From positions 124,001-188,000 of the forward strand of contig NC_007575.1 of NCBI RefSeq assembly GCF_000012965.1: 64,000 nucleotides of DNA, written 5' to 3'. This DNA is from Sulfurimonas denitrificans DSM 1251. Lineage in GTDB: Bacteria > Campylobacterota > Campylobacteria > Campylobacterales > Sulfurimonadaceae. A program made the translations under genes and the position numbers. The notes beneath the pieces are model-generated. The model worked only from the letters and a program-made list of their open reading frames with translations, was not told the origin of the DNA and did no database searches. Shown here piece by piece: positions 1,282 to 13,196 of the stretch (its first letter is position 1; every line of letters starts with the position of its first letter).

Positions 1282-1623
1282 TTAGTCTGTTTTGTTAGTA
1301 GTTAGGGGCGGAGGAGAGAGATTGTTATTTAAATTTTCAAAGTAGTTTGAGATTAGTTTTTGAAATTTGCACAGAAGAAGAGTTTTTCTTGTGCGACAAA
1401 AGTAGTAACAGTTACAATGGCAAGGTTTTGAAGATAGTTCTAAGGGCAGTGCGGCGGCGAGATCATCATCTTCTATCTCTACTTCTTGCTCATCACCATT
1501 AAAGTTTGACATGTGAAAACTCTCTACACAAGATGCTCTAGCATGAAGAGTCACTTGATTTGTCGTTGCAGTAATTGCTCTTAGAGTAAAATAGTTTTTG
1601 CCAAAGCCCTTAGGAAGTCTCAC
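1282..1623 (-). CDS. Possible small Cys-rich protein upstream of TonB receptor, unrecognised
   Basis: A 113-codon frame begins with GTG at 1623 behind a GAGG five bases upstream. It ends 24 bases before the receptor start, so the two could be co-transcribed. I recognise no family. The middle is acidic (VEIEDDDLAA); a compact cluster CHCNCYYFC with two further Cys and several basic residues follows, and the tail is Asn/Pro/Thr-rich. There is no signal peptide. The Cys/His cluster could bind a metal, which would suit a gene beside a metal-complex receptor, but this is speculation. It may equally be a chance open frame in a leader region. Confidence 0.3.
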   Translation of the reverse strand: MRLPKGFGKNYFTLRAITATTNQVTLHARASCVESFHMSNFNGDEQEVEIEDDDLAAALPLELSSKPCHCNCYYFCRTRKTLLLCKFQKLISNYFENLNNNLSPPPLTTNKTD

Positions 1624-1969
1624 AAACGCCTCATCTGTTTTTTTTTGAAATTATAGCACTATAAATTTATGCTACATGTAAAGATGCAAAAAGTAGCAAA
1701 AATTTATTTAAAGGGCTTAATGTCCGCCCTTATGTAGTGTGGCAACCCACCAAAATCTTATAATAAGAGCCTTTCGGATGTAATTGTACTAGATATTGCT
1801 GATAGAAGAAAGTGTTTAGCTATTTTGAGTTCCTTGTGTAATTATCTTTTTCTATATGCATCGTACATAGTTATTGCTTAAAATACATAAGTTTTACATC
1901 AAATTATATATTTTTACTTGGCTTTATATTTTTTATAATATAAAATAGATATTTTAGAAGGAAAAAAAT
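1624..1969. other. Intergenic region of 346 bases between receptor unit and RM module
   Basis: No convincing gene is seen. It holds the divergent upstream regions of the minus-strand receptor unit and the plus-strand RM module. A short hairpin (AAGGGC at 1711-1716 pairing with GCCCTT at 1726-1731) and a minus-strand TATAAT-like box at 1655-1650 are visible. I looked for a cobalamin riboswitch B12 box before the receptor and did not recognise one. Confidence 0.5.
1934..1939 (+). promoter_or_regulatory. Candidate -10 box of RM module
   Basis: TATAAT lies 31 bases before the ATG of the small HTH gene, within a very AT-rich stretch. No good -35 box is seen at 16-18 bases upstream, so this is weak. 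If the HTH protein is a controller, an operator should overlap this region; I see no clear palindromic C-box. Confidence 0.3.
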
Positions 1970-2179
1970 ATGGAATTTGAAAAGTTTTTAGAGCGCTTAA
2001 AAGAAGCTGGATTGTCTAAAGATGATTTTACAGAGCTTACAGGCTTATCTGGCAACACTTTAATTGGATGGGCCACAGAGAGACAAGGTAAAAAAACGCA
2101 ACCTTGGGTAAAGAGTTGGCTAGATTTATATATAAATAATAGAGAGAAAGATATTATTATCAAAGCATTAAGGAATTAG
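1970..2179 (+). CDS. Small helix-turn-helix protein leading an RM operon
   Basis: The gene encodes 69 residues behind a good AAGGA ribosome site. The central part (about residues 14-40: LSKDDFTELTGLSGNTLIGW) reads as a helix-turn-helix of the XRE/Cro kind, with an A/S-x-L-T-G-L turn followed by an Asn-Thr-Trp recognition helix. It ends two bases before the methyltransferase start. By position and size it could be a controller (C) protein that times expression of the RM genes, but it is not a textbook C protein and could be a repressor of another kind. Base composition matches the AT-rich module rather than the housekeeping genes. Confidence 0.65.
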   Translation: MEFEKFLERLKEAGLSKDDFTELTGLSGNTLIGWATERQGKKTQPWVKSWLDLYINNREKDIIIKALRN

Positions 2180-2181
2180 TT

Positions 2182-3369
2182 ATGAGAAATATAAAAGTTG
2201 CTTCTTTTTTTTCTGGTTGTGGGGGACTAGATATAGGTTTTGAGGGTGATTTTGAAACCAATTCTACATCAATAAGAAATAAATCTTGGATACAAAACAC
2301 TAATGAGAAAAAATGTAAAGTTAAAAAAACAACATTTGAAACAGTCTTTGCATGTGATATAAAGAAGTCAGCAAAAATTGCATGGGAATCTTATTTTAAA
2401 AAAGAGAATGTTTTTCATCTTGAAAGTATCGTTGATTTAATAAAAAAAGCACATAACAATGAGTTTATTTTTCCGCATGCTGACATCGTTACAGGCGGAT
2501 TTCCATGTCAAGACTTTAGCATCGCTGGAAAAAGAAATGGATTTAACTCCCATAAAACACACTCTAACACTTATGTTACGGATGAACCTTCCATTGAATC
2601 AAGAGGTATGCTTTACTATTGGTTGAGAGAAGCGATCTCAATTATAAAGCCAAAGATATTTATAGCTGAGAATGTAAAAGGCTTAGTTACAATGGGTGAT
2701 ATAAAAAATATTATCGCTGATGATTTTAGAAATATTAACGGCGGGTACATAGTTTTGGAACCTAGAGTATTAAATGCTGCTGATTATGGAGTTCCACAAA
2801 GTAGAGAAAGAGTTTTTTTTATTGGAATAAGGAGAGATTTAATTAATGATTTAACAATAAACATGTTAATCAATAATGAGTTAAGTCTATATCCGCCACA
2901 AACGCATGATTACAAAAATGATTTTGTTAGCACATCAGACATTTTGTCCGATTTGCCAGAACCAGAAGATAGCTCAGATATTTCACACCAAAAATATTCA
3001 AAGGCTAAATGGTACGGCAAACACTGTCAAGGGCAAACAGAAATAAATCCTGCAGGATTATCGCCAACAATAAGAGCTGAACACCACGGAAATATTGAAT
3101 ACAGAAGACTATCCAAAGAACATGGCGGAAAAATTATCAATGAATTTGATTTACTAGAGAGAAGATTAAGCGTAAGAGAGTGTGCGAGATTACAAACATT
3201 CCCAGATAATTATAATTTCGTTTCAGACAAAATAAGTGCCTCAGAAGCGTATAAATTAATAGGAAACGCAGTCCCGCCGCTACTCGGTTATCATATCGCA
3301 CAACACATACAATCCATTTGGGATATATTATTTTTAAATAAGAGTAAAACAGAAAAAAAGGTAGCATAA
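2182..3369 (+). CDS. DNA (cytosine-5-)-methyltransferase of a type II-like RM system
   Basis: A 395-residue protein with the ordered motifs of the C5-MTase family: SAM-binding motif I (FFSGCGGLDIGF, near residue 9), catalytic motif IV (GGFPCQDFS, Cys near 109), motif VI (ENVKG, near 162), motif VIII (QSRERVFFIG, near 206) and motif X (GNAVPP, near 362). The stretch from about 270 to 320 before motif IX would be the target-recognition region; I cannot predict the site. Around residues 30-50 is a lysine-rich insertion. The start is two bases after the HTH stop, and the stop overlaps the next start by one base (ATAATGG context), so the three genes form one operon. Confidence 0.93.
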   Translation: MRNIKVASFFSGCGGLDIGFEGDFETNSTSIRNKSWIQNTNEKKCKVKKTTFETVFACDIKKSAKIAWESYFKKENVFHLESIVDLIKKAHNNEFIFPHADIVTGGFPCQDFSIAGKRNGFNSHKTHSNTYVTDEPSIESRGMLYYWLREAISIIKPKIFIAENVKGLVTMGDIKNIIADDFRNINGGYIVLEPRVLNAADYGVPQSRERVFFIGIRRDLINDLTINMLINNELSLYPPQTHDYKNDFVSTSDILSDLPEPEDSSDISHQKYSKAKWYGKHCQGQTEINPAGLSPTIRAEHHGNIEYRRLSKEHGGKIINEFDLLERRLSVRECARLQTFPDNYNFVSDKISASEAYKLIGNAVPPLLGYHIAQHIQSIWDILFLNKSKTEKKVA

Positions 3370-4406
3370 TGGCTAGAGACCAAACAATATTTTCAGAGAT
3401 TTGTATTGCACTATCAATCATTGATGCAAGAGATACAGATTTCTCATTTATTGAAAATGTGACTAAAAAGGACGAAGAAATTTATTTAAAAGAGTTAGAA
3501 AAAAGAAGCCTATTAAAGAACGGTGCACTATCTATTGAGGCATTAAAACAATCGGGATTAATCATAAGGAACTATCTTGTTGGTTGTGGTTTTACTCCAA
3601 AAAAAATTATTTGGACAGGAAAAGATAATATCGCTGGTGTTGTATCAGTTGCTAAAGACCTTGAGATTTTAAATTTTAGAATTTCAGTAAAAGAAAATGC
3701 GGATGTTTTTATAAATGGTTCACCTTTAACAGTTTTTGAGGATTTACCAAAAGGATTATTTGGACAAAAGAAACGAGGAGAAGATTGGTTTATTAAAACA
3801 GCAAAAGATGAGATTGAAAGATATTATGCTTTATGCAGAAAGCATTTATCAGTTCATGATGATTTTTCAGCGATTGATAAGTTTTATGGGAATAGAGACA
3901 AAGCATATAAAAAAGAATTTAGCAAAAAAGTAGCGTTATTGCATAGTGAAAAAAATAACGAGATATTAGAATCTTATCAAATTATGTGTAATAAAGTAAG
4001 TCAAATATCTTCTGAAATATTTAACCAAAATCTTTTGAAATTTAAAACTGCGTACACCTCTTCTGTTTCATTGCAACCAATCTTTCATTATTTTTTCAAA
4101 ATAAATGGAATCAAATATATTATTGCTGGAACTGAAAAGAACAAACCATTTGCCAGTCTCTTAGAAAACAGCACAAGCTGGACGAAACAATACTCATTTT
4201 TAGACATTATCGCAAGTCCAAAGGAAGCAGGTCAGCCTGAGGTTCTGTTGCGTTTTATATTCAAAGACAAAAAAACAAATGAACAATTTGAAATTCCATT
4301 AAAAATAGAAATACGATGGTCACATGGTAAGTTTTGTGGAAATCCTGAAGCTAAAGTATATAAACAGTGGTCATACATGGAGCTTCCTTGGAGCGAGAAT
4401 TTATAA
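3369..4406 (+). CDS. Probable type II restriction endonuclease, family not recognised
   Basis: A 345-residue protein starting in the stop of the methyltransferase gene. I do not recognise the family by sequence. The assignment rests on context (HTH, C5-MTase, then this gene) and size. Candidate nuclease elements are an acidic stretch followed by FRISVKENADVF (about residues 102-113), which resembles the S-x-K or E-x-K half of PD-(D/E)XK sites, and a C-terminal LKIEIRWSHGKF segment. Both are weak hints. The final residues are W-rich (QWSYMELPWSENL). The gene is AT-rich like its partners. It could instead be an accessory protein of the system. Confidence 0.55.
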   Translation: MARDQTIFSEICIALSIIDARDTDFSFIENVTKKDEEIYLKELEKRSLLKNGALSIEALKQSGLIIRNYLVGCGFTPKKIIWTGKDNIAGVVSVAKDLEILNFRISVKENADVFINGSPLTVFEDLPKGLFGQKKRGEDWFIKTAKDEIERYYALCRKHLSVHDDFSAIDKFYGNRDKAYKKEFSKKVALLHSEKNNEILESYQIMCNKVSQISSEIFNQNLLKFKTAYTSSVSLQPIFHYFFKINGIKYIIAGTEKNKPFASLLENSTSWTKQYSFLDIIASPKEAGQPEVLLRFIFKDKKTNEQFEIPLKIEIRWSHGKFCGNPEAKVYKQWSYMELPWSENL

Positions 4407-4577
4407 ATTCGAACAAAGAACCCTCAGAACTAAAAATCTCATACGACCACGAAACAGATATTATCACGCTCGAAGCTTATGATGAGGGCTTTTTCCGCTG
4501 GAAAAAGATATTGCACTCAGGAAATCTTAGAAGTCGCTGTAGAGAAGCTCTTTGATGATATGGATTGCCCTATATAA
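4407..4577 (+). pseudogene. Frameshifted C-terminal remnant of an unidentified gene
   Basis: After the stop of the putative endonuclease, one frame reads NSNKEPSELKISYDHETDI then TLEAYDEGFF. The protein-like reading then jumps frame at a run of T (near 4490-4500) and continues as AGKRYCTQEILEVAVEKLF then DDMDCPI and a TAA ending at 4577. No single frame carries both halves with a good start. The codon use looks like real protein in both halves. It is probably the tail of a host gene broken when the RM module arrived, or a gene with one sequencing error. I do not recognise the protein. Confidence 0.5.
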
Positions 4578-4613
4578 GACCGCTAATATCTATATATGTG
4601 ATAAAATTCATCT

Positions 4614-5939
4614 ATGAAACTATCACATTTAAAGCAGATTCTTGAGTATCTGCAAAAATTTACAAAAATTTCCTCAATTTACAGAGTTAGTGACACTATC
4701 ATAAAGGTTTCTTTTGATAGAGATGATGAGCTCTACTTTGAGATGGCGCGCTCAAACTCCAAGATATTTAAGTGTCTCTCTTATGCTCGCTCAAAAGTCT
4801 ATAATGCACCATTTGACGTGCTCTTAGCAAAGCGATTTAATCGTGCAAATATACTACATGTAGAGCTTTTTGGTGGCGATAAAATTGTTCGCCTTAAAAC
4901 CTCAGTTGCCTCCGCATACAAAGAGGAGATTACCTATTTACAGTTTGAATTTACTGGAAAATATACAAATGTTATTATCTTAGATGAGAGTGAAATAGTT
5001 TTAGAAGCCCTGCGGCATGTTGACCTTTTTTCATCATTTAGAGAGGTGCGAGTCGGGCAAAAGCTACTTGATATTCCAGCTGCCCCATTTGAGGCAAAAG
5101 AGTATATTCTTGATGATGTTGAGTCGTTCTTATATGATGAGTATGAGCAAGAGCAGAGAGAAAAACTTGCCTCTTTAAAAAAACAGAAAATCTCTCTTTT
5201 AAGTAAAAAACTAAAAAAGTTAGAAAAACTATACACTACGCTAGATGATGAAGATGAGTTAGAAGCAGAGGCGCAAAAATATAACCACTTTGGCAATCTT
5301 CTTTTGTCCAATATGCATACTATTCGCCCATACCAAAGAGTAGTTGAGCTTGATGATTATAATGGAGTAAAACAGAGGGTTGAGCTTCACAAAGAGTTTT
5401 CAACTCCTGCTATGATGGCAAATTCACTTTTTGCAAGAAGTAAAAAAGCAAAGCAGAGAGCTTCACATCTACACATAGAGAGAGCTTCACTTATCTCAAA
5501 GATTGAGCATATAAAGTTATTTATTCACACTGTAACAGAAGCTAAAGATATGGCAAAGATTCAGCTGCTTTTTCCAAAAATATTACAGAGTAAAAAGATA
5601 AAAACAGATGATTCGATAGAGACTTTTTGGATAGAGGGATATAAAGTAACTCTTGGAAAAAATGAAAAAGGAAACATAACGCTTCTTCAAAACGCACGTG
5701 CAAAAGATATCTGGATTCACTTAAAAGAGCGTCCATCAGCACATGTAATCATCACAACAGATAAACAAAATGTTCCTATGTCTGTTATAGAAGGGGCTGC
5801 AAGATTGTGTGTCGATTTTACTATGTTTGAAAAAGACCGTTATTTGGTCGATTATACCCCAAGAAGAGAAGTAACAATCCAAAGTGGTGCCAATGTACTT
5901 TATAATAAGTACAAAACTATAGAGATAGACACTAGATAA
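4614..5939 (+). CDS. NFACT/RqcH-like (FbpA family) ribosome quality-control protein
   Basis: A 441-residue protein with the NFACT layout: an NFACT-N-like domain (about 1-160), two charged coiled-coil stretches (about 170-215 and 265-300) and a C-terminal NFACT-R/DUF814 domain with the diagnostic DIWIHLKERPSAHVII motif near residue 365. Family members bind peptidyl-tRNA on obstructed 60S or 50S subunits and, in bacteria, direct C-terminal alanine tailing. This one is shorter than Bacillus RqcH, as is usual in Campylobacterota. No strong ribosome site is visible before the ATG. Older annotation would call it a fibronectin-binding protein. Confidence 0.85.
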   Translation: MKLSHLKQILEYLQKFTKISSIYRVSDTIIKVSFDRDDELYFEMARSNSKIFKCLSYARSKVYNAPFDVLLAKRFNRANILHVELFGGDKIVRLKTSVASAYKEEITYLQFEFTGKYTNVIILDESEIVLEALRHVDLFSSFREVRVGQKLLDIPAAPFEAKEYILDDVESFLYDEYEQEQREKLASLKKQKISLLSKKLKKLEKLYTTLDDEDELEAEAQKYNHFGNLLLSNMHTIRPYQRVVELDDYNGVKQRVELHKEFSTPAMMANSLFARSKKAKQRASHLHIERASLISKIEHIKLFIHTVTEAKDMAKIQLLFPKILQSKKIKTDDSIETFWIEGYKVTLGKNEKGNITLLQNARAKDIWIHLKERPSAHVIITTDKQNVPMSVIEGAARLCVDFTMFEKDRYLVDYTPRREVTIQSGANVLYNKYKTIEIDTR

Positions 5940-7104: not shown

Positions 7105-8166
7105 TTGATACTTTTAGGTTCGACAGGCTCTATAGGGGTAAATACACTTGAGATTGCTAAAAAATTCTCTATACATGTAGAGGCATTAGTAGCTGGAAAC
7201 AACATAGCTCTCTTAAATAAGCAGATAAAAGAGCACAATCCAAAAGTAGTTGTTATCGCCGATAAAGCAGATATTTCAAAAGTAAATCATAGTAACGTTC
7301 TTTACGGACAAGAGGCTGTTTTAAAAGTCATAGAAGACTCTTCAAGTGAGTTGGTTGTAAATGCTCTTGTTGGTTTTTTAGGGCTTCGTCCAACACTCAA
7401 AGCTCTTACATGTAATAAAAGAGTAGCTCTTGCAAATAAAGAGTCACTTGTCGCATGTGGGGCATTTATAGAGACTTCAAAGATTCAGCCAATAGATAGC
7501 GAACATTTCGGACTTTGGTATCTGATGCAAAACAGACCTGTAGAAAAGATGATTATCACTGCCAGCGGTGGTGCATTTCGTGACTGGAACATAGCAAAAC
7601 TCCAAAATGCTACTTTAGCAGACACACAAAAACATCCAAACTGGTCGATGGGGCAAAAGATAACTATTGACAGTGCGACAATGGTAAATAAGATGTTTGA
7701 ACTCTTAGAGGCTAGATGGCTCTTTGGTGAGGGCAAATATGACGCCCTCATCGAGACGAAATCACTCATACATGCACTTATAGACTTTAAAGACGGCTCG
7801 ACTACCGCTCACTTCGCAAATGCCAGTATGCAACTCCCCATAGCTTTTGCACTAAACACTAAGATGGATGAAAATATCCTCCCACATGTAGATTTGCTAA
7901 AAGTAGGCTCTTTGGAGTTTCGAGAGATTACATGTGAGAGATATCCAGTCTGGGAGATAAAAGACGAGCTTTTAAAAAATCCTGCAAGAGGTGTAGTTGT
8001 AAATGCGGCGAATGAAGCTGCAATAAAGAAGTTCATAGCTCGCAAAATAGGCTTCATGGACATAGCAAAAACTATCATAAAAGCTTATGAGAAGTTTGAT
8101 ATTTCGCCAAAAAATGTAGATGATGTTTTTGCTCTTGATGAAGAGGTAAGAAACTTTATAAAATGA
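7105..8166 (+). CDS. dxr: 1-deoxy-D-xylulose 5-phosphate reductoisomerase
   Basis: Dxr performs the second step of the MEP isoprenoid pathway using NADPH. Visible family marks are the N-terminal nucleotide-binding GSTGSIG, the ANKESLVACG segment (about residue 111), DSEHFGLW with substrate/metal-binding residues (about 131) and KMFELLEARWLF (about 195). The only start after the cdsA stop is TTG at 7105, with no room upstream, so translation is probably coupled to cdsA. Length 353 fits the shorter family members. Its stop overlaps the ATG of the methyltransferase remnant as ATGA. Confidence 0.96.
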   Translation: MILLGSTGSIGVNTLEIAKKFSIHVEALVAGNNIALLNKQIKEHNPKVVVIADKADISKVNHSNVLYGQEAVLKVIEDSSSELVVNALVGFLGLRPTLKALTCNKRVALANKESLVACGAFIETSKIQPIDSEHFGLWYLMQNRPVEKMIITASGGAFRDWNIAKLQNATLADTQKHPNWSMGQKITIDSATMVNKMFELLEARWLFGEGKYDALIETKSLIHALIDFKDGSTTAHFANASMQLPIAFALNTKMDENILPHVDLLKVGSLEFREITCERYPVWEIKDELLKNPARGVVVNAANEAAIKKFIARKIGFMDIAKTIIKAYEKFDISPKNVDDVFALDEEVRNFIK

Positions 8167-8310
8167 ACTACATCGGCTCAAAGTACAAACTCTCTGTCTT
8201 TTTAGAAGATGAGATAAGAGCCGCGGTTGAGGGCTCTTTGAGTAATAAACTCTTTTGCGATATGTTCGCTGGAATTGCGGTAGTGGGGTGCGAATTTAAA
8301 CAATATGTAA
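8163..8310. repeat. Left copy of imperfect direct repeat flanking AccI-like RM pair
   Basis: Ungapped match to 11212-11359, offset 3049 bases, about 82 percent identical by my hand alignment. The repeat consists of the start of the D12 methyltransferase gene. Both copies are in the same orientation and enclose the RM genes. Confidence 0.85.
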
Positions 8311-8357
8311 AAATAGCTGTGGACGGATATAAGGTTTTTTTGGAAATAGATGTTTAG
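8163..8357 (+). pseudogene. Truncated, decayed 5' copy of the adenine methyltransferase gene
   Basis: The 64-codon frame starts in the dxr stop (ATGA). It matches the N-terminus of the intact methyltransferase at 11212: [11 protein letters not shown], then LEDEIRAAV and FCDMFAG. Over the first 148 bases the two align without gaps with about 27 mismatches, roughly 82 percent. The SAM motif has decayed (FAGIAVVG here versus FAGTGVVG). Similarity fades near 8330 and the frame ends at 8357. The most economical reading is that this is the original position of the gene after dxr, separated from the intact copy by the RM pair at 8509-11210. A functional protein is very unlikely. Confidence 0.85.
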
Positions 8358-8508
8358 ATATAGAGCGATTTGACAATAGACTTCTGTATAACCTAAAAAT
8401 TAGATTCAAAATCAAGTTTAGAAAGACGAGGGATTATAGAAAATAGATAAAAATAAATTTACAAAAGCTTTAAGAATAGCTAAAATAAGAATTAAAAAGG
8501 AAAAGGTT

Positions 8509-9609
8509 ATGACATATTATGAAAATATTAGAGAAATGACAAAAATAGTTCCTGTTCAATTGGTAAATTTTGAAGAACCAAGAGATAAAGCTAGGACGCC
8601 AACACAGGCATCCTCAAATTTTATTACAAACAAAGAACAGGGAGATTGGGCTGAAAATCTCATTGCAAGAGCAATAAATGAAACATCAAATAATTTTGTT
8701 GCCGTGAAATATGGCAAATCTGACAATTTAGTGGCAGGAGAAGATGGATTTGATGCTTTTTACCAAGATTTTCAGAATGAACTTGACACTATTGGAAAAA
8801 GACCTGATTTATTAATATTTAACAAAGTCGATTTTGACAACAGTTTAGGTTTTGATATTAGCCAAGAACCTCATGAGGAAATTACAGACTATGTAAAAAA
8901 AGCGATAGCTGGTATTGAAGTGCGTTCAAGTGCCTTTTTGATTGACAGATACGAAGAAGCAATGCAAGCCAGAACCGAAAAATTTGTGCAGATTGCATTA
9001 GAAACAAAAGATAAGATACTTACTGATTTTTCAGATGTTTTAGAACATCCTGCAAGGCAAAGCTATATTGAGTTATTAAATAGTATTACTGCAAGCACTC
9101 TCAATGTAGCAGACTTTAGAGTTCCTAGCTGGAGTTCTTCAGATAGATTAATCCAAGTAAAAAATCTTTTTAAACAACTAAAAAATGCAATAAAAGAGAT
9201 TCAAAAAAGAGATTACCTTTCAATTACGCCGAAAGTTGAAGATCTTAAAGTTGTTTACAAATGGATTGAAACTTTCAATGTTCCTCATTTTTATTTTCAA
9301 GTATTTTTCGATAAAGTTTATGGGATTTCATTTGAGCAAATCCTAAAAATTATTTCAGATTCTGACAATGACGGTGTAATATTTTCAGTTGAGACAGACA
9401 CAAAAAATCAAAACAAGACAACAATAAAAATAAATTCAAAATTTGGTGTTCCAATTGCTTTAAAAGTTGATGAACCACTTCATGAAAGTGTTAGAAAAGA
9501 GATGGATAGAGGACGATTGCTGTTTTATGTAACATTTAAAGGTGGAACAGCTTACCTTGATATTGAAAACTTAAGAGCTATTTTAAACTTAGAAGAGTCT
9601 ATTTTTTAA
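8509..9609 (+). CDS. AccI-family-like type II restriction endonuclease
   Basis: A 366-residue protein whose features match my knowledge of the AccI endonuclease family (RE_AccI). There is a PD-(D/E)XK-like core, GKRPDLLIF (Asp near 99) followed by GIEVRSSAF (near 136), and the conserved stretch [20 protein letters not shown] followed by [18 protein letters not shown] (about 243-277). AccI cuts GT^MKAC; the same or a related site is a guess here. The next gene, a large adenine methyltransferase of M.AccI-like size, supports the call. AAGGAAAAGG precedes the ATG. The gene is more AT-rich than dxr and tsaD, consistent with transfer. Confidence 0.72.
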
Positions 9610-11210
9610 TGATGAAAATAAATAAACTTCTTGTTGATAATTTACTTGAAAATGAATATGTAAAAGCTATTTCAAGTAAGCACCGTAAACAGTTTGCCCA
9701 ATTTTTTACACCTTTTTCTATCGCAAATTTAATGTCAAAGTGGATTTTAGGAAATCAAAATTTAAAGACTGTGTTAGAACCGGCATTTGGACTCGGTATA
9801 TTTTCAAGAGTATTATTATCTTGCAAAGAAGATATTGAGATTAAAGGTTTTGAAGTCGATAAAATTATTTTTCAAAAGGCAAAACAATATTTTAGTGAAA
9901 CCAAAAATTGCAATATTATACTGCAGGACTACATGTATAATGATTGGAAAAATAAGTACGATGGAATTATCTGCAATCCGCCTTATTTTAAATTTCATGA
10001 TTATGATAATAAGAACATATTAAAAGAAATTGAAACTAATTTAAAATGCAAACTAAACGGATTTACTAATTTATATACATTGTTTTTATTAAAATCAATT
10101 CACCAATTAAGTGTAAATGGTCGTTGTGCTTATGTTATTCCTTCAGAATTTTTGAATTCTGATTATGGAAAATTGGTTAAAACTTATTTGATAAAAAGTA
10201 AAACATTAAGACATGTAATTGTAATTAATTTTGAAGAAAATCTTTTTGACGATGCCTTGACAACAGCTTCAATAATATTTTGCTCAAATGACAACTTGAC
10301 AGAAAAAGTTCAGTTTACAAATATTAAATCCTTAGAAGATTTAAGTAAAATCGAAGAAATAATTTCTAAATATCCAAACTTCTCTAAAACAGAGCAAACT
10401 TATCATTATTTGGATTTGAATCCGGAAATAAAATGGAAAGCATATTATCAAAAGCAAAACGGTGCTAAATTTAAAAATCTTATACCATTTTCAACTTATG
10501 CAAAAGTTGTTCGTGGAATTGCGACAGGTTCAAATAATTATTTTGTATTTAATTTGTCAAAAGCCAAAGAATTTGGTATTTCAGAACAGTATCTATTACC
10601 ATGTATTTGCAGTGCAAAAGATGCAAAAACATCATTTTTTACCACAAAAGATTTTGAAATACTAAAAAATAATGATAAATCAATTTTTCTCTTTAACGCA
10701 AAAGATTTAAATAATAAAAAAGTTCAAGAATATATCAAAAAAGGAGAGACAGAGGGAGTTGATAAGAAATTTTTAACATCGAGTAGAACACCATGGTATT
10801 CGATTGAAAATAGACAACCGGCACCAATTTGGGTTTCAGTTTTTAATAGAAATGGCTTACGATTTATAAGAAATGAGGCAAATGTCTCAAATCTAACTTC
10901 TTTTCATTGTGTTTATCCAAAACAAAATAATTTGTTTTCAGAATTAGATATTAATCTGCTATTTGCTTATTTACTAACAAATACTGCAAAACAAATTTTT
11001 ACAGATAACAGCAGAGAGTATGGAAATGGATTGCAAAAATTTGAACCTAATGACTTAAATAAAGCAATGATGCTAAATTTGAGTCTATTGGATAATGATA
11101 CTGTAAATAAAATTTTATATTTTTATGATTTGTACAGACAAGGGCTAGATTGTATTAGTGAAATTGATAAAATTTTAATAGAAAATTTTAGCTTAGAAGA
11201 GATACTTTGA
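9609..11210 (+). CDS. N6-adenine DNA methyltransferase partner (Eco57I-like class)
   Basis: A 533-residue protein with SAM motif I as VLEPAFGLGIFSRVL (about residue 57) and catalytic motif IV NPPY at about 123-126, the gamma-class order. An N-terminal region carries the QFAQFFTPFSIANLM segment typical of these enzymes. The C-terminal half (from about 290, KVVRGIATGSNNYFVF) is the presumed target-recognition domain. It starts inside the stop of the endonuclease gene (TAATG), so the two are one unit. It should protect the host from the endonuclease at 8509. Size and partner fit M.AccI-type enzymes. Confidence 0.82.
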   Translation: MMKINKLLVDNLLENEYVKAISSKHRKQFAQFFTPFSIANLMSKWILGNQNLKTVLEPAFGLGIFSRVLLSCKEDIEIKGFEVDKIIFQKAKQYFSETKNCNIILQDYMYNDWKNKYDGIICNPPYFKFHDYDNKNILKEIETNLKCKLNGFTNLYTLFLLKSIHQLSVNGRCAYVIPSEFLNSDYGKLVKTYLIKSKTLRHVIVINFEENLFDDALTTASIIFCSNDNLTEKVQFTNIKSLEDLSKIEEIISKYPNFSKTEQTYHYLDLNPEIKWKAYYQKQNGAKFKNLIPFSTYAKVVRGIATGSNNYFVFNLSKAKEFGISEQYLLPCICSAKDAKTSFFTTKDFEILKNNDKSIFLFNAKDLNNKKVQEYIKKGETEGVDKKFLTSSRTPWYSIENRQPAPIWVSVFNRNGLRFIRNEANVSNLTSFHCVYPKQNNLFSELDINLLFAYLLTNTAKQIFTDNSREYGNGLQKFEPNDLNKAMMLNLSLLDNDTVNKILYFYDLYRQGLDCISEIDKILIENFSLEEIL

Positions 11211-11211
11211 T

Positions 11212-11359
11212 ATGAACTACATCGGCTCAAAGTACAAACTCTCCGCCTTTTTAGAAGATGAAATAAGGGCTGCGGTTGGCGGTTCTTTGAGCGATAAAGT
11301 CTTTTGCGATATGTTTGCGGGAACGGGAGTTGTAGGGCGAATCTTTAAGCAACATGTAA
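11212..11359. repeat. Right copy of imperfect direct repeat flanking AccI-like RM pair
   Basis: Same 148-base segment as 8163-8310 but inside the intact methyltransferase gene. The mismatches cluster in the last third, where the left copy has lost the SAM-binding motif. Confidence 0.85.
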
Positions 11360-12222
11360 AAAGCGTTATCAGCAACGATATAGAAGATTACAGTTATGTT
11401 TTAAACAAAAACTATATACAAAACTACGCACAACTGCAAGATAATGAGAGTTACATAAAAGAGCTAAATGAGCTTCTTTTGCGAGAAGACGGGTTTATTT
11501 ATAACCACTACTGCTTAGGAAGCGGAAGCGGCAGGCAGTATTTCAGCGATGAAAACGGGAAAAAGATAGATACTATCAGGCTAAAGATAGAGGAGTTAAA
11601 ACGTAGCAAGAAGATAGACGATAACATGTACTACTTTTTACTTGCTTCTCTTATCGAGAGTGCGGACAAGGTGGCAAATACAGCCTCAATGTACGCCGCA
11701 TTTTTAAAAACTCTAAAAAAACCTGCACAAAGAAAGCTTGTCTTAGAGCCTGCATATTTTGAGCAGAGCCATAACGGACATGTAGTCTATCAAGAAGATA
11801 GCAACTCTCTTATAAAGAAGATAAAAGGAGATATTCTTTACCTTGATCCGCCTTACAACCACAGACAGTATGGAGCCAACTATCATATCTTAAATACAAT
11901 TGCTCTTTATGATGAGTTCGTACCAAAGGGAAAAACTGGTATTAGAGTCTATAATCGTTCTATGTATTGCAAAAAAAATAGAGCAATAAAAAGCTTTGAA
12001 GAGCTGATAAGAGATGCAAATTTTAAATATATTTTTTTGAGTTACAACAATGAGGGGATTATGAGCAGAGATGAGGTAAAATCTATCATGTCAAAATATG
12101 GAAAATACGATTTGAAAATAAAAGAACATAAAAGATTTAAGGCAAGTAATGCGTTAAGTAAAAAACATAAAACTGATTCTACTGATGAATATCTGCATAT
12201 TTTACAAAAGGATGGATTTTGA
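11212..12222 (+). CDS. D12-class DNA N6-adenine methyltransferase
   Basis: A 336-residue protein with the D12/Dam-like order: motif X at the N-terminus (NYIGSKYKL), motif I FAGTG at about 35-39, catalytic DPPYN at about 212-216 and FLSYNNEG near 276. It methylates adenine; the target is unknown. No endonuclease is adjacent except the AccI-like pair, which has its own methyltransferase, so this may be an orphan or a regulatory enzyme. Its codon use resembles the surrounding core genes, unlike the RM pair. The stop overlaps the TTG start of tsaD. Ancestrally it probably followed dxr directly. Confidence 0.88.
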
Positions 12223-13196
12223 TACTAAGCATTGAGAGTTCTTGCGATGATAGCGCGATAGCTATTACCGAGATTGCAACAAACAGACTTCTTTTTCATA
12301 AAAAGATTTCACAAGAGTTAGAGCATAGCGTTTATGGAGGAGTTGTTCCTGAACTCGCTGCAAGACTACATGCAGAAGCACTTCCTCGGATACTAGAGGA
12401 GTGCAATCCATACTTTAAAGATTTAAAAGCGGTCGCTGTAACAACCACTCCAGGGCTTAGTGTAACTCTTGTTGAGGGTGTAACTATGGCTAAAGCCATC
12501 TCTATTGCGCTAAATATTCCTATAATCGGTGTTAACCATTTGGTTGGGCATATATACTCTCTGTTTATAGAAAAGGAGTCATACTTTCCTTTAACAGTTT
12601 TGCTAGTTTCTGGTGGGCATACTCAGGTTATGGAAGTAAAAAGCTTTACAGAGATAAAAACGGTTGCAAAGAGTATGGATGATAGTTTTGGAGAGAGTTT
12701 TGATAAGGTTGCAAAGATGATGAATCTTGGTTATCCTGGAGGCCCTGTTATAGAAGCGTTGGCAAAAGGCGGAGATAGAAAAAGATATAATTTTACAGTT
12801 CCACTTTTTCAATCTCCGCTTATAGCTTTTTCATACTCAGGGCTGAAAAACTCTGTGCGTCTTGCTGTAGAAGCGGCAAATGAAGAGGATTTTAAAGATA
12901 TAGCCGCTTCATTCGAGCATATAGCAACTGCTCATATCATTCAAAAGCTAAAGAAATATTTTAAAGAAGTTCCTCCTAAAACCTTTGCTATTGTCGGTGG
13001 AGCGAGTGCAAATCTATATCTTCGCTCCTCCATAGAGGAACTTTTAAAGCCTCATGGTGCAGATTTACTACTAAGTGAGCTAAAATATTGTTCAGACAAT
13101 GCAGCAATGATTGGTCGAGTGGCAGTTGAGATGTATAAAGAGAGTTTGTTTAGTGATTTGAGCAGTTTGGAAGTTTGTCCAAAAAGTGTCATTTAG
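12219..13196 (+). CDS. tsaD: tRNA N6-adenosine threonylcarbamoyltransferase
   Basis: TsaD transfers the threonylcarbamoyl group to A37 of ANN-decoding tRNAs, together with TsaB and TsaE. Family marks are the opening [27 protein letters not shown] (about 40), the metal-binding NHLVGHIYS with two His (about 107-115) and [10 protein letters not shown] (about 128). Later come [12 protein letters not shown] and [10 protein letters not shown]. The 325-residue length is usual. It starts with TTG overlapping the methyltransferase stop by four bases, so translation is probably coupled. The C-terminus ends normally. Confidence 0.96.

Follow-up and report, generated by a model that had tools for sequence, protein, structure and literature searches.

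Restriction-modification (R-M) genes inserted with a long target duplication were reportedly described in Helicobacter pylori by Nobusato in 2000. In Pseudomonas aeruginosa, cDHS1 and cDHS2 are core defence hotspots, cDHS1 with a median of 26 kb (PMC10250203), and in a survey of 80 species transferred genes cluster in few chromosomal hotspots with fast turnover (PMC5635113). For displaced type VI secretion system (T6SS) effector genes of Vibrio cholerae, homology-facilitated illegitimate recombination was proposed (PMC5361080); illegitimate joins carry 3-10 bp of microhomology, and the single crossover of an end-joined circle is an observed route (PMC3240628). Core-gene hotspots and one-ended recombination are already known kinds (PMC10250203, PMC5361080); the movement of transposase-free R-M and defence genes between chromosomes is an open question. 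Here we analyze a window of 64,000 nucleotides (i.e., the whole stretch of DNA studied) from Sulfurimonas denitrificans DSM 1251 (genome G000, 2.2 Mb in one contig; window C1:124001-188000), in which an AccI-type R-M pair lies between dxr and tsaD and is flanked by two copies of the start of a D12-family methyltransferase gene. It is likely that Sulfurimonas swaps cargo at the dxr-tsaD interval by homologous recombination together with microhomology joins, and that the doubled D12 start is a scar of this process.

The doubled D12 start and the AccI-type pair

The gene order on the plus strand is cdsA, dxr, a 64-aa frame, an AccI-type endonuclease, a methyltransferase, a complete D12 methyltransferase and tsaD; two of the flanking genes are ones that we take to be cdsA and Tex. 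The features of the interval are as follows.

7105..8166, plus strand: dxr (TIGR00243), left flank of the interval
8163..8309, plus strand: left D12 copy (D12a), truncated, first 49 codons, from pairwise comparison with D12b
8305..8310, plus strand: join of D12a and ATPase, from sequences set side by side
8310..8357, plus strand: 3' stub of an ATPase (AAA_14/DUF4143), KIAVDGYKVFLEIDV then stop, from protein-shuffle comparison with cargo ATPases
8358..8493, plus strand: AT-rich stretch, 23.5% GC, without convincing homology in sequence comparisons with relatives
8509..9609, plus strand: AccI-type restriction endonuclease (PF09545 RE_AccI, 766 bits; PADLOC REase_II, 684 bits)
9609..11210, plus strand: methyltransferase of the AccI pair, Eco57I family (PF07669; PADLOC type II methyltransferase, 1170 bits)
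11212..12222, plus strand: complete D12 methyltransferase (D12b), 336 aa (Pfam D12)
11870..11882, no strand: D12b breakpoint near nt 665 in the comparison with genome G004 (dLL 48.1, 0/500 shuffles)
12219..13196, plus strand: tsaD, TTG start (TIGR03723), right flank of the interval

As the first-pass annotation had reported, direct copies of the start of the D12 gene enclose the R-M genes: D12a and D12b agree at 124 of their first 150 nt (82.7%), the left region aligns with the window by blastn at 83.7% over 153 columns (E 5e-41), and a repeat search of the window returns a direct repeat at 8148-8313 and 11197-11362 (80% over 166 nt). The similarity begins at the two ATGs, 8163 and 11212; judged by eye, the 15 nt ahead of them are no more alike than expected by chance. 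The overlaps described there are present as well, the start of D12a overlapping the dxr stop as ATGA and the end of D12b overlapping the TTG start of tsaD. The first 32 nt of the two copies are identical and the rest 77.6% identical (4/500 shuffles), which, judged from the sequences, is the divergence of alleles from different species. Separately, the first 20 nt of D12 (11212-11231 in the window) are identical, synonymous sites included, in 7 of 15 aligned D12 sequences, two of these seven being the window copies; this might reflect coupling to the stop upstream or exchange that has recurred.

The left frame (8163-8357, 64 aa) scores 22.9 bits against Pfam D12, barely above the cut-off of 22, and carries an altered motif (FAGIA for FAGTG) and compensating +2/-2 indels. 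Its D12 similarity stops at about 8309, and its last ~15 codons are the end of another gene, a point absent from the first-pass annotation. In a comparison of this tail with cargo proteins gathered across dxr-tsaD intervals, the ATPases of G142 (score 48) and G004 (score 47) ranked first and second, at their C-terminal residues, ahead of a score of 30; none of 5000 protein shuffles reached the tail score for either ATPase. Pfam identifies AAA_14/DUF4143 domains in the G142 protein. The gene order is dxr-ATPase-D12-tsaD in G004 and dxr-ATPase-tsaD in G142. The D12a-ATPase join carries an apparent TAAAAA-like microhomology of 5-6 nt, read from sequences set side by side. Since the ATPase stub and a further ~135 nt intervene, D12a does not stand directly beside the R-M pair.

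The first-pass assignment of an AccI-like R-M pair is borne out by the family matches, the endonuclease covering 366 of 366 positions of PF09545 RE_AccI and adjoining an Eco57I-family methyltransferase that PADLOC also recognizes. A single scan gave 182 relatives of the endonuclease, which occur in several phyla, and 80 of them, mostly Bacteroidota by record title, were taken into a locus comparison. A methyltransferase relative adjoins the endonuclease in 79 of these 80 loci. A D12 gene like that of the window is seen near the pair at just one locus (G075), many of the loci being short contigs from which a farther D12 could escape; given this rarity, D12 looks like part of the dxr-tsaD site rather than of the AccI pair.

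G075 has the order dxr, 109 nt, AccI pair, D12, tsaD, without a left D12 copy. In its gap between dxr and the endonuclease, 54 nt resemble the region upstream of the ATPase (0/1000 shuffles against G004, 4/1000 against G142), so that an ATPase may formerly have stood there. Window and G075 are 80.6% identical in the AccI DNA and 84 and 80% in D12, near core divergence. Trees were built from 47 of 80 endonuclease rows and 44 of 74 methyltransferase rows, window included. The window does not fall beside G075 in the endonuclease tree, where G075 groups with locus L262 (support 98/82); in the methyltransferase tree, the window, G075, Sulfurimonas STE_9 and a Sulfurovum form one clade (100/98).

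Breakpoints within D12

A sharp breakpoint lies inside D12b. Compared with G004, nt 1-665 are 96.8% identical and the remainder 76.8% (dLL 48.1, 0/500 shuffles), and identity at third positions is 94% before nt 665 and 58% after, with 66% in dxr and 52% in tsaD. Over nt 1-150 alone, identity to G004 is 95.3%. The flanking genes are 84.1% (dxr) and 77.7% (tsaD) identical between window and G004 and contain no significant break (75/500 and 154/500 shuffles). No significant break was found between D12b and G075 or between G004 and G075 either (146/500 and 168/500 shuffles), so an intrinsically variable 3' end of D12 alone fails to explain the drop. By this comparison, a part of D12 has changed hands much later than the sequence around it, in either of the two lineages. 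For D12, no relative of solved structure was found at E 0.001.

The cleanest case of the proposed mechanism is G063 (L204, 2719-6001), whose locus is laid out like that of the window, with two D12 copies and a fresh chimera that breaks at nt 82. Its order is a D12 fragment (nt 1-420), a degraded methyltransferase piece, u208, an IceA-like protein, XRE and a complete D12. The two D12 copies are 75.6% identical up to nt 82 and 99.1% identical from nt 82 to 420 (0/500 shuffles). At nt 420 the fragment is joined, over GAGTTTGTA as an apparent microhomology, to the degraded piece, which is of N4 type. The cargo is 94.7% identical to that of G097 over 1678 nt, ending 15 nt ahead of D12. Two routes would produce such a locus: crossing over within D12 coupled to an illegitimate join at the opposite side, or a circle, closed by end joining, that crosses over once. 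The one-ended homologous crossover is seen both in G063 (nt 82) and in D12b of the window against G004 (nt 665).

Further truncated genes occur at the site. The N4-type methyltransferase keeps its dxr-side end before new cargo in G074 (residues 1-192), G005 (1-199), G064 (1-94) and G111 (1-29); only the other end is kept by D12 in G005 and G064, by a kinase in G099 and by the methyltransferase in G063. As both ends are found retained, the polarity of truncation is not exclusive. An IceA-like protein precedes D12 in both G097 and G063 (PF05315 in G097) and has merely a weak match to a solved structure (E 0.038). This order recalls H. pylori, which has an iceA-hpyIM pair (NlaIII-like).

The dxr-tsaD interval across Sulfurimonas

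We then consider the interval across the genus. From 135 Sulfurimonas genomes, 119 had a tsaD match and the region was compared in 111 besides the window; G106, G153, G130, G151, G136, G154 and G133 were not taken in. Eight of the 111 lack a complete interval, because no dxr lies within 6 kb (G129) or because of a contig end or dxr and tsaD on separate contigs. The resulting 104 complete intervals (103 and the window) come from species-level genomes, and as the search spanned ~6 kb, longer intervals would be missed.

No insert is the commonest single state: 38 of 104 intervals are empty (40 nt or less), often with an ATGA overlap of dxr and tsaD. The other 66, window included, are occupied by 77 to 5079 nt. 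The same core flanks thus hold differing cargo or none, as in a core hotspot. The first-pass view of the R-M pair as cargo gained at this site stands. The arrangement that was taken there as the original operon, dxr-methyltransferase-tsaD, does exist: the uninterrupted single target, dxr-D12-tsaD, is found in G033 and G156 (D12 adjoins dxr in G033 and G103). With 38 intervals empty, it is one of many states.

As a raw count, an R-M or methyltransferase family is present in 31 of the 66 occupied intervals, window included. The 65 other occupied intervals hold histidine kinase (21), D12 (14), a 41-aa membrane-like protein (13), Dcm-type methyltransferase (9), an outer-membrane-like protein (8), a fused N6 methyltransferase with specificity domains (7), N4/N6 methyltransferase (6), HNH nucleases (4 and 2) and further families one to three times each; G105 and G107 match none of the families used. 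All listed family matches lie on the strand of dxr and tsaD and none on the minus strand. Pfam names come from 30 cargo proteins, one of them from outside the genus, and among these 30 no transposase or integrase family was found. None of the 104 intervals was seen to contain a second complete D12 gene.

On a dxr tree, content labels need 58 changes and occupancy 21; both counts are rough because 39 of 101 inner branches of this quick tree have support below 80 and dxr itself recombines. In other families of the order, a gene belonging to a single cluster separates dxr from tsaD in six of seven genomes, and G045 is empty; Pfam assigns the tested member (G044) to Ser_hydrolase, and the cluster is also found in a second dxr-tsaD copy of G007. 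Our literature search found no report of this site, nor of a methyltransferase gene as a recurrent crossover point.

Several inserts deserve mention in their own right. The 41-aa membrane-like protein is conserved, occurs in 13 of the 103 other intervals (L101, L113 etc.) and is sometimes the sole insert. L108 (G016; 1288-2757, minus strand) encodes a 490-aa protein, outer-membrane-like by eye and without a Pfam match, from the family present in 8 intervals. In L211 (G111; 2991-5000), a 669-aa HSP90-like ATPase (PF13589) is flanked by a methyltransferase stub and by D12; it has no PADLOC match and is a candidate defence gene of a new kind. Toxin-antitoxin pairs of BrnT/CopG, ParE/RHH and HepT/nucleotidyltransferase type are also found in the interval (L220, L232, L243).

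Flanking genes and predicted activity

The genes around the site disagree on the relatives of the window. G064 and G141 are nearest in Tex (97 and 95% amino acid identity), tsaD (92 and 94%) and cdsA (87%, partial, and 90%), whereas by dxr the nearest are G075 and G004. Informative sites have a change point at 7119 (dLL 20.2, 0/1000 shuffles): to the left, 59% of 291 sites group the window with G141, and to the right 19% of 77 sites do. The sisters G000, G141 and G064 hold three dxr 3' alleles, mutually 0.79-0.80 identical, between congruent cdsA and tsaD (cdsA, tsaD and Tex 0.82-0.94), and their intervals contain, in that order, AccI and D12, nothing, and epimerase, methyltransferase, HNH and a D12 remnant. 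With dxr 3' ends so divergent amid congruent neighbours, dxr would seem to have been replaced in at least two of the three sisters. Import of the dxr of the window alone was dropped as an explanation, since the dxr 3' ends of G141 and G064 differ equally from each other. The pattern fits homologous recombination that swaps the interval and extends into dxr. The dxr of G004 (L096) contains an in-frame TAG, either a sequencing error or a broken gene.

Site counts bear on whether the AccI pair works. AccI recognises GTMKAC, GTATAC being one of its sites. Expected counts are maximal-order Markov estimates. GTMKAC occurs once in the window against 20.5 expected, 127 times in the 111 other genus loci against 241.6 expected, and 0-5 times in stretches of 10-15 kb from seven relatives against 3.1-6.1 expected. 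Per genome, GTATAC is counted 22, 15, 13 and 8 times in the four known carriers G000, G075, G001 and G047 (the G001 endonuclease is in pieces on two contigs), and 90-276 times in 12 other genomes; the endonuclease is absent from the four of those 12 that were searched for it (G004, G005, G012 and G021). The site is therefore scarcest in the four known carriers of the 16 genomes counted, which indicates that the AccI pair is probably active, and the depletion suggests an enzyme long active in the lineage. Set against the backward control, the separation is less clean (8 of 43 in G047, 90 of 566 in G021). GATC is found 37 times in the window against 250.5 expected, and 677 times in the other genus loci against 2019.

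Discussion

We interpret the dxr-tsaD interval as a core-gene hotspot whose cargo would be exchanged between Sulfurimonas species by homologous recombination. Crossovers would fall in the flanking genes and in D12 itself, which would act as an extra anchor, and a non-homologous end of the cargo would be joined by microhomology, truncating the resident gene. In the window, D12a, fused to the tail of an ATPase gene, would be the start of one D12 allele and D12b a different allele, either D12b or its G004 counterpart being a mosaic. The AccI pair would have arrived within an exchanged block, not as a target-duplicating element. A two-sided block exchange may suffice for the window, the ATPase stub having formed earlier. 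We prefer it to a single one-ended import of stub, AccI pair and D12 from a G004-like donor, which was rejected because the stub is too unlike G004 and dxr seems to have been exchanged too. The sequences themselves show the D12a-ATPase fusion, the occupancy of the site, the breakpoints, the disagreement between the flanks and the lack of a left copy in G075. We infer, on this model, the order of events, the donor, the role of D12 as anchor in the window and natural transformation as the route. ComEC and DprA families were located; the same families match 10 and 11 of 14 control genomes.

Several observations weigh against this interpretation. D12a is near-identical to D12b nowhere beyond nt 1-32, and therefore the window alone shows no crossover between the two. 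The ATPase stub is short; at DNA level its score against the complete G004 gene is attained in 6 of 2000 shuffles, and that against G142 in none of 2000. It is also just 77% identical to G004 over 39 nt and so did not travel with the 96.8% identical D12 tract. Either the D12 of the window (G000b) or that of G004 may be the recombinant, and an ATPase-AccI-D12 order is absent from the 104 complete intervals. Over nt 780-989 of D12, the identity of the window to its sister G064 (0.752) does not exceed that to G004 (0.757) or G075 (0.802), while its tsaD is closest to the sister (0.849 against 0.793 for G004 and 0.782 for G075), which places the switch to the sister background at about the D12-tsaD border. 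The GTATAC depletion suggests a long stay of the AccI enzyme, awkward for a late import, and kinship is drawn from four genes near the site, not from a genome-wide tree.

The alternative that fares best is still unlikely, namely an old tandem locus, dxr-D12a-ATPase-AccI-D12b-tsaD, in which one internal deletion fused D12a to the end of the ATPase, recombination being incidental. It agrees with the nearest dxr alleles being those of G004 (ATPase-D12) and G075 (AccI-D12), with the ATPase upstream part kept in G075 and with AccI and D12 identities near core divergence. However, two complete D12 genes occur together in none of the 104 intervals, and the deletion leaves the D12 breakpoint at nt 665, the conflicting dxr and the empty-site sister unexplained.

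The first-pass annotation had proposed an insertion with a long target duplication. We consider it improbable that the AccI pair, on entering D12, doubled the first ~147 nt of this gene and that the left copy then decayed. Two same-orientation copies of the D12 5' end do flank the pair, and R-M insertion with long target duplication has been proposed in H. pylori (jhp045/046; PMC4978471). The identity of nt 1-32 and the indels and non-synonymous changes of D12a, as in a dead copy, are in line with this account. Among the D12a-specific changes, 7 of 13 are synonymous against ~0.22-0.27 expected without selection, a hint from few sites that D12a was formerly a working gene; their excess at third positions falls short of significance (p 0.10), which is compatible with a dead copy. 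It is nevertheless the ATPase stub and the 135 nt, not the R-M pair, that adjoin the left copy, and G075 has the same pair and D12 without that copy. The two window copies diverge after nt 32 like between-species alleles, while D12b is far closer to the D12 of another species over nt 1-150. A state that the first-pass annotation had named as evidence to the contrary, two copies in a relative lacking the R-M pair, is seen in kind in G063, where a truncated and a complete D12 surround other cargo. These comparisons disfavour a one-allele origin of both D12 copies, a very old insertion being just conceivable.

Movement of the pair by a transposase or integrase now lost is very improbable: AccI endonucleases do occur in several phyla, but the window contains no tRNA or tmRNA, the 30 Pfam-scanned cargo proteins include no transposase or integrase family, and the listed family matches in the other occupied intervals share the dxr/tsaD strand. 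A transposase footprint was the other sign that the first-pass annotation had named as speaking against its own reading.

Exchange by homologous recombination with microhomology joins thus remains our preferred account. It raises a further idea that we put forward only tentatively and think doubtful as it stands: a solitary D12 might be kept partly as a landing pad, a conserved sequence beside tsaD that would let R-M cargo recombine in with both housekeeping genes intact, and so might serve Sulfurimonas as the common handle of a cassette system that works without transposases. One interval followed across 104 species-level genomes displays empty, occupied and intermediate states, with two sharp breakpoints inside the gene at the insertion site. 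It offers a testable route, i.e., recombination via a shared methyltransferase gene, and a site at which to look for new cargo.

Compared with known systems, the locus is like the H. pylori long target duplication in having R-M genes between direct copies of part of a methyltransferase gene, and unlike it in that the copies are diverged alleles, one of them fused to a third gene. Like cDHS1 and cDHS2 of P. aeruginosa, it holds changing defence genes between two fixed core genes; unlike them, its intervals are 0-5.1 kb (in a search span of ~6 kb), contain no mobile genes among the 30 proteins scanned, have no tRNA or tmRNA nearby in the window and lie between co-directional flanks, often with a start-stop overlap. 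The clustering and quick turnover resemble those of the hotspots in the 80-species survey (PMC5635113), with the difference that one site is here resolved to breakpoints. As in the V. cholerae case, there is a homologous anchor at one end, a non-homologous join at the other, and resident genes truncated or displaced beside the cargo; the present locus differs in that R-M and other genes make up the cargo, a methyltransferase gene flanked by housekeeping genes would provide the anchor, and homologous exchange on both sides seemingly takes place too.

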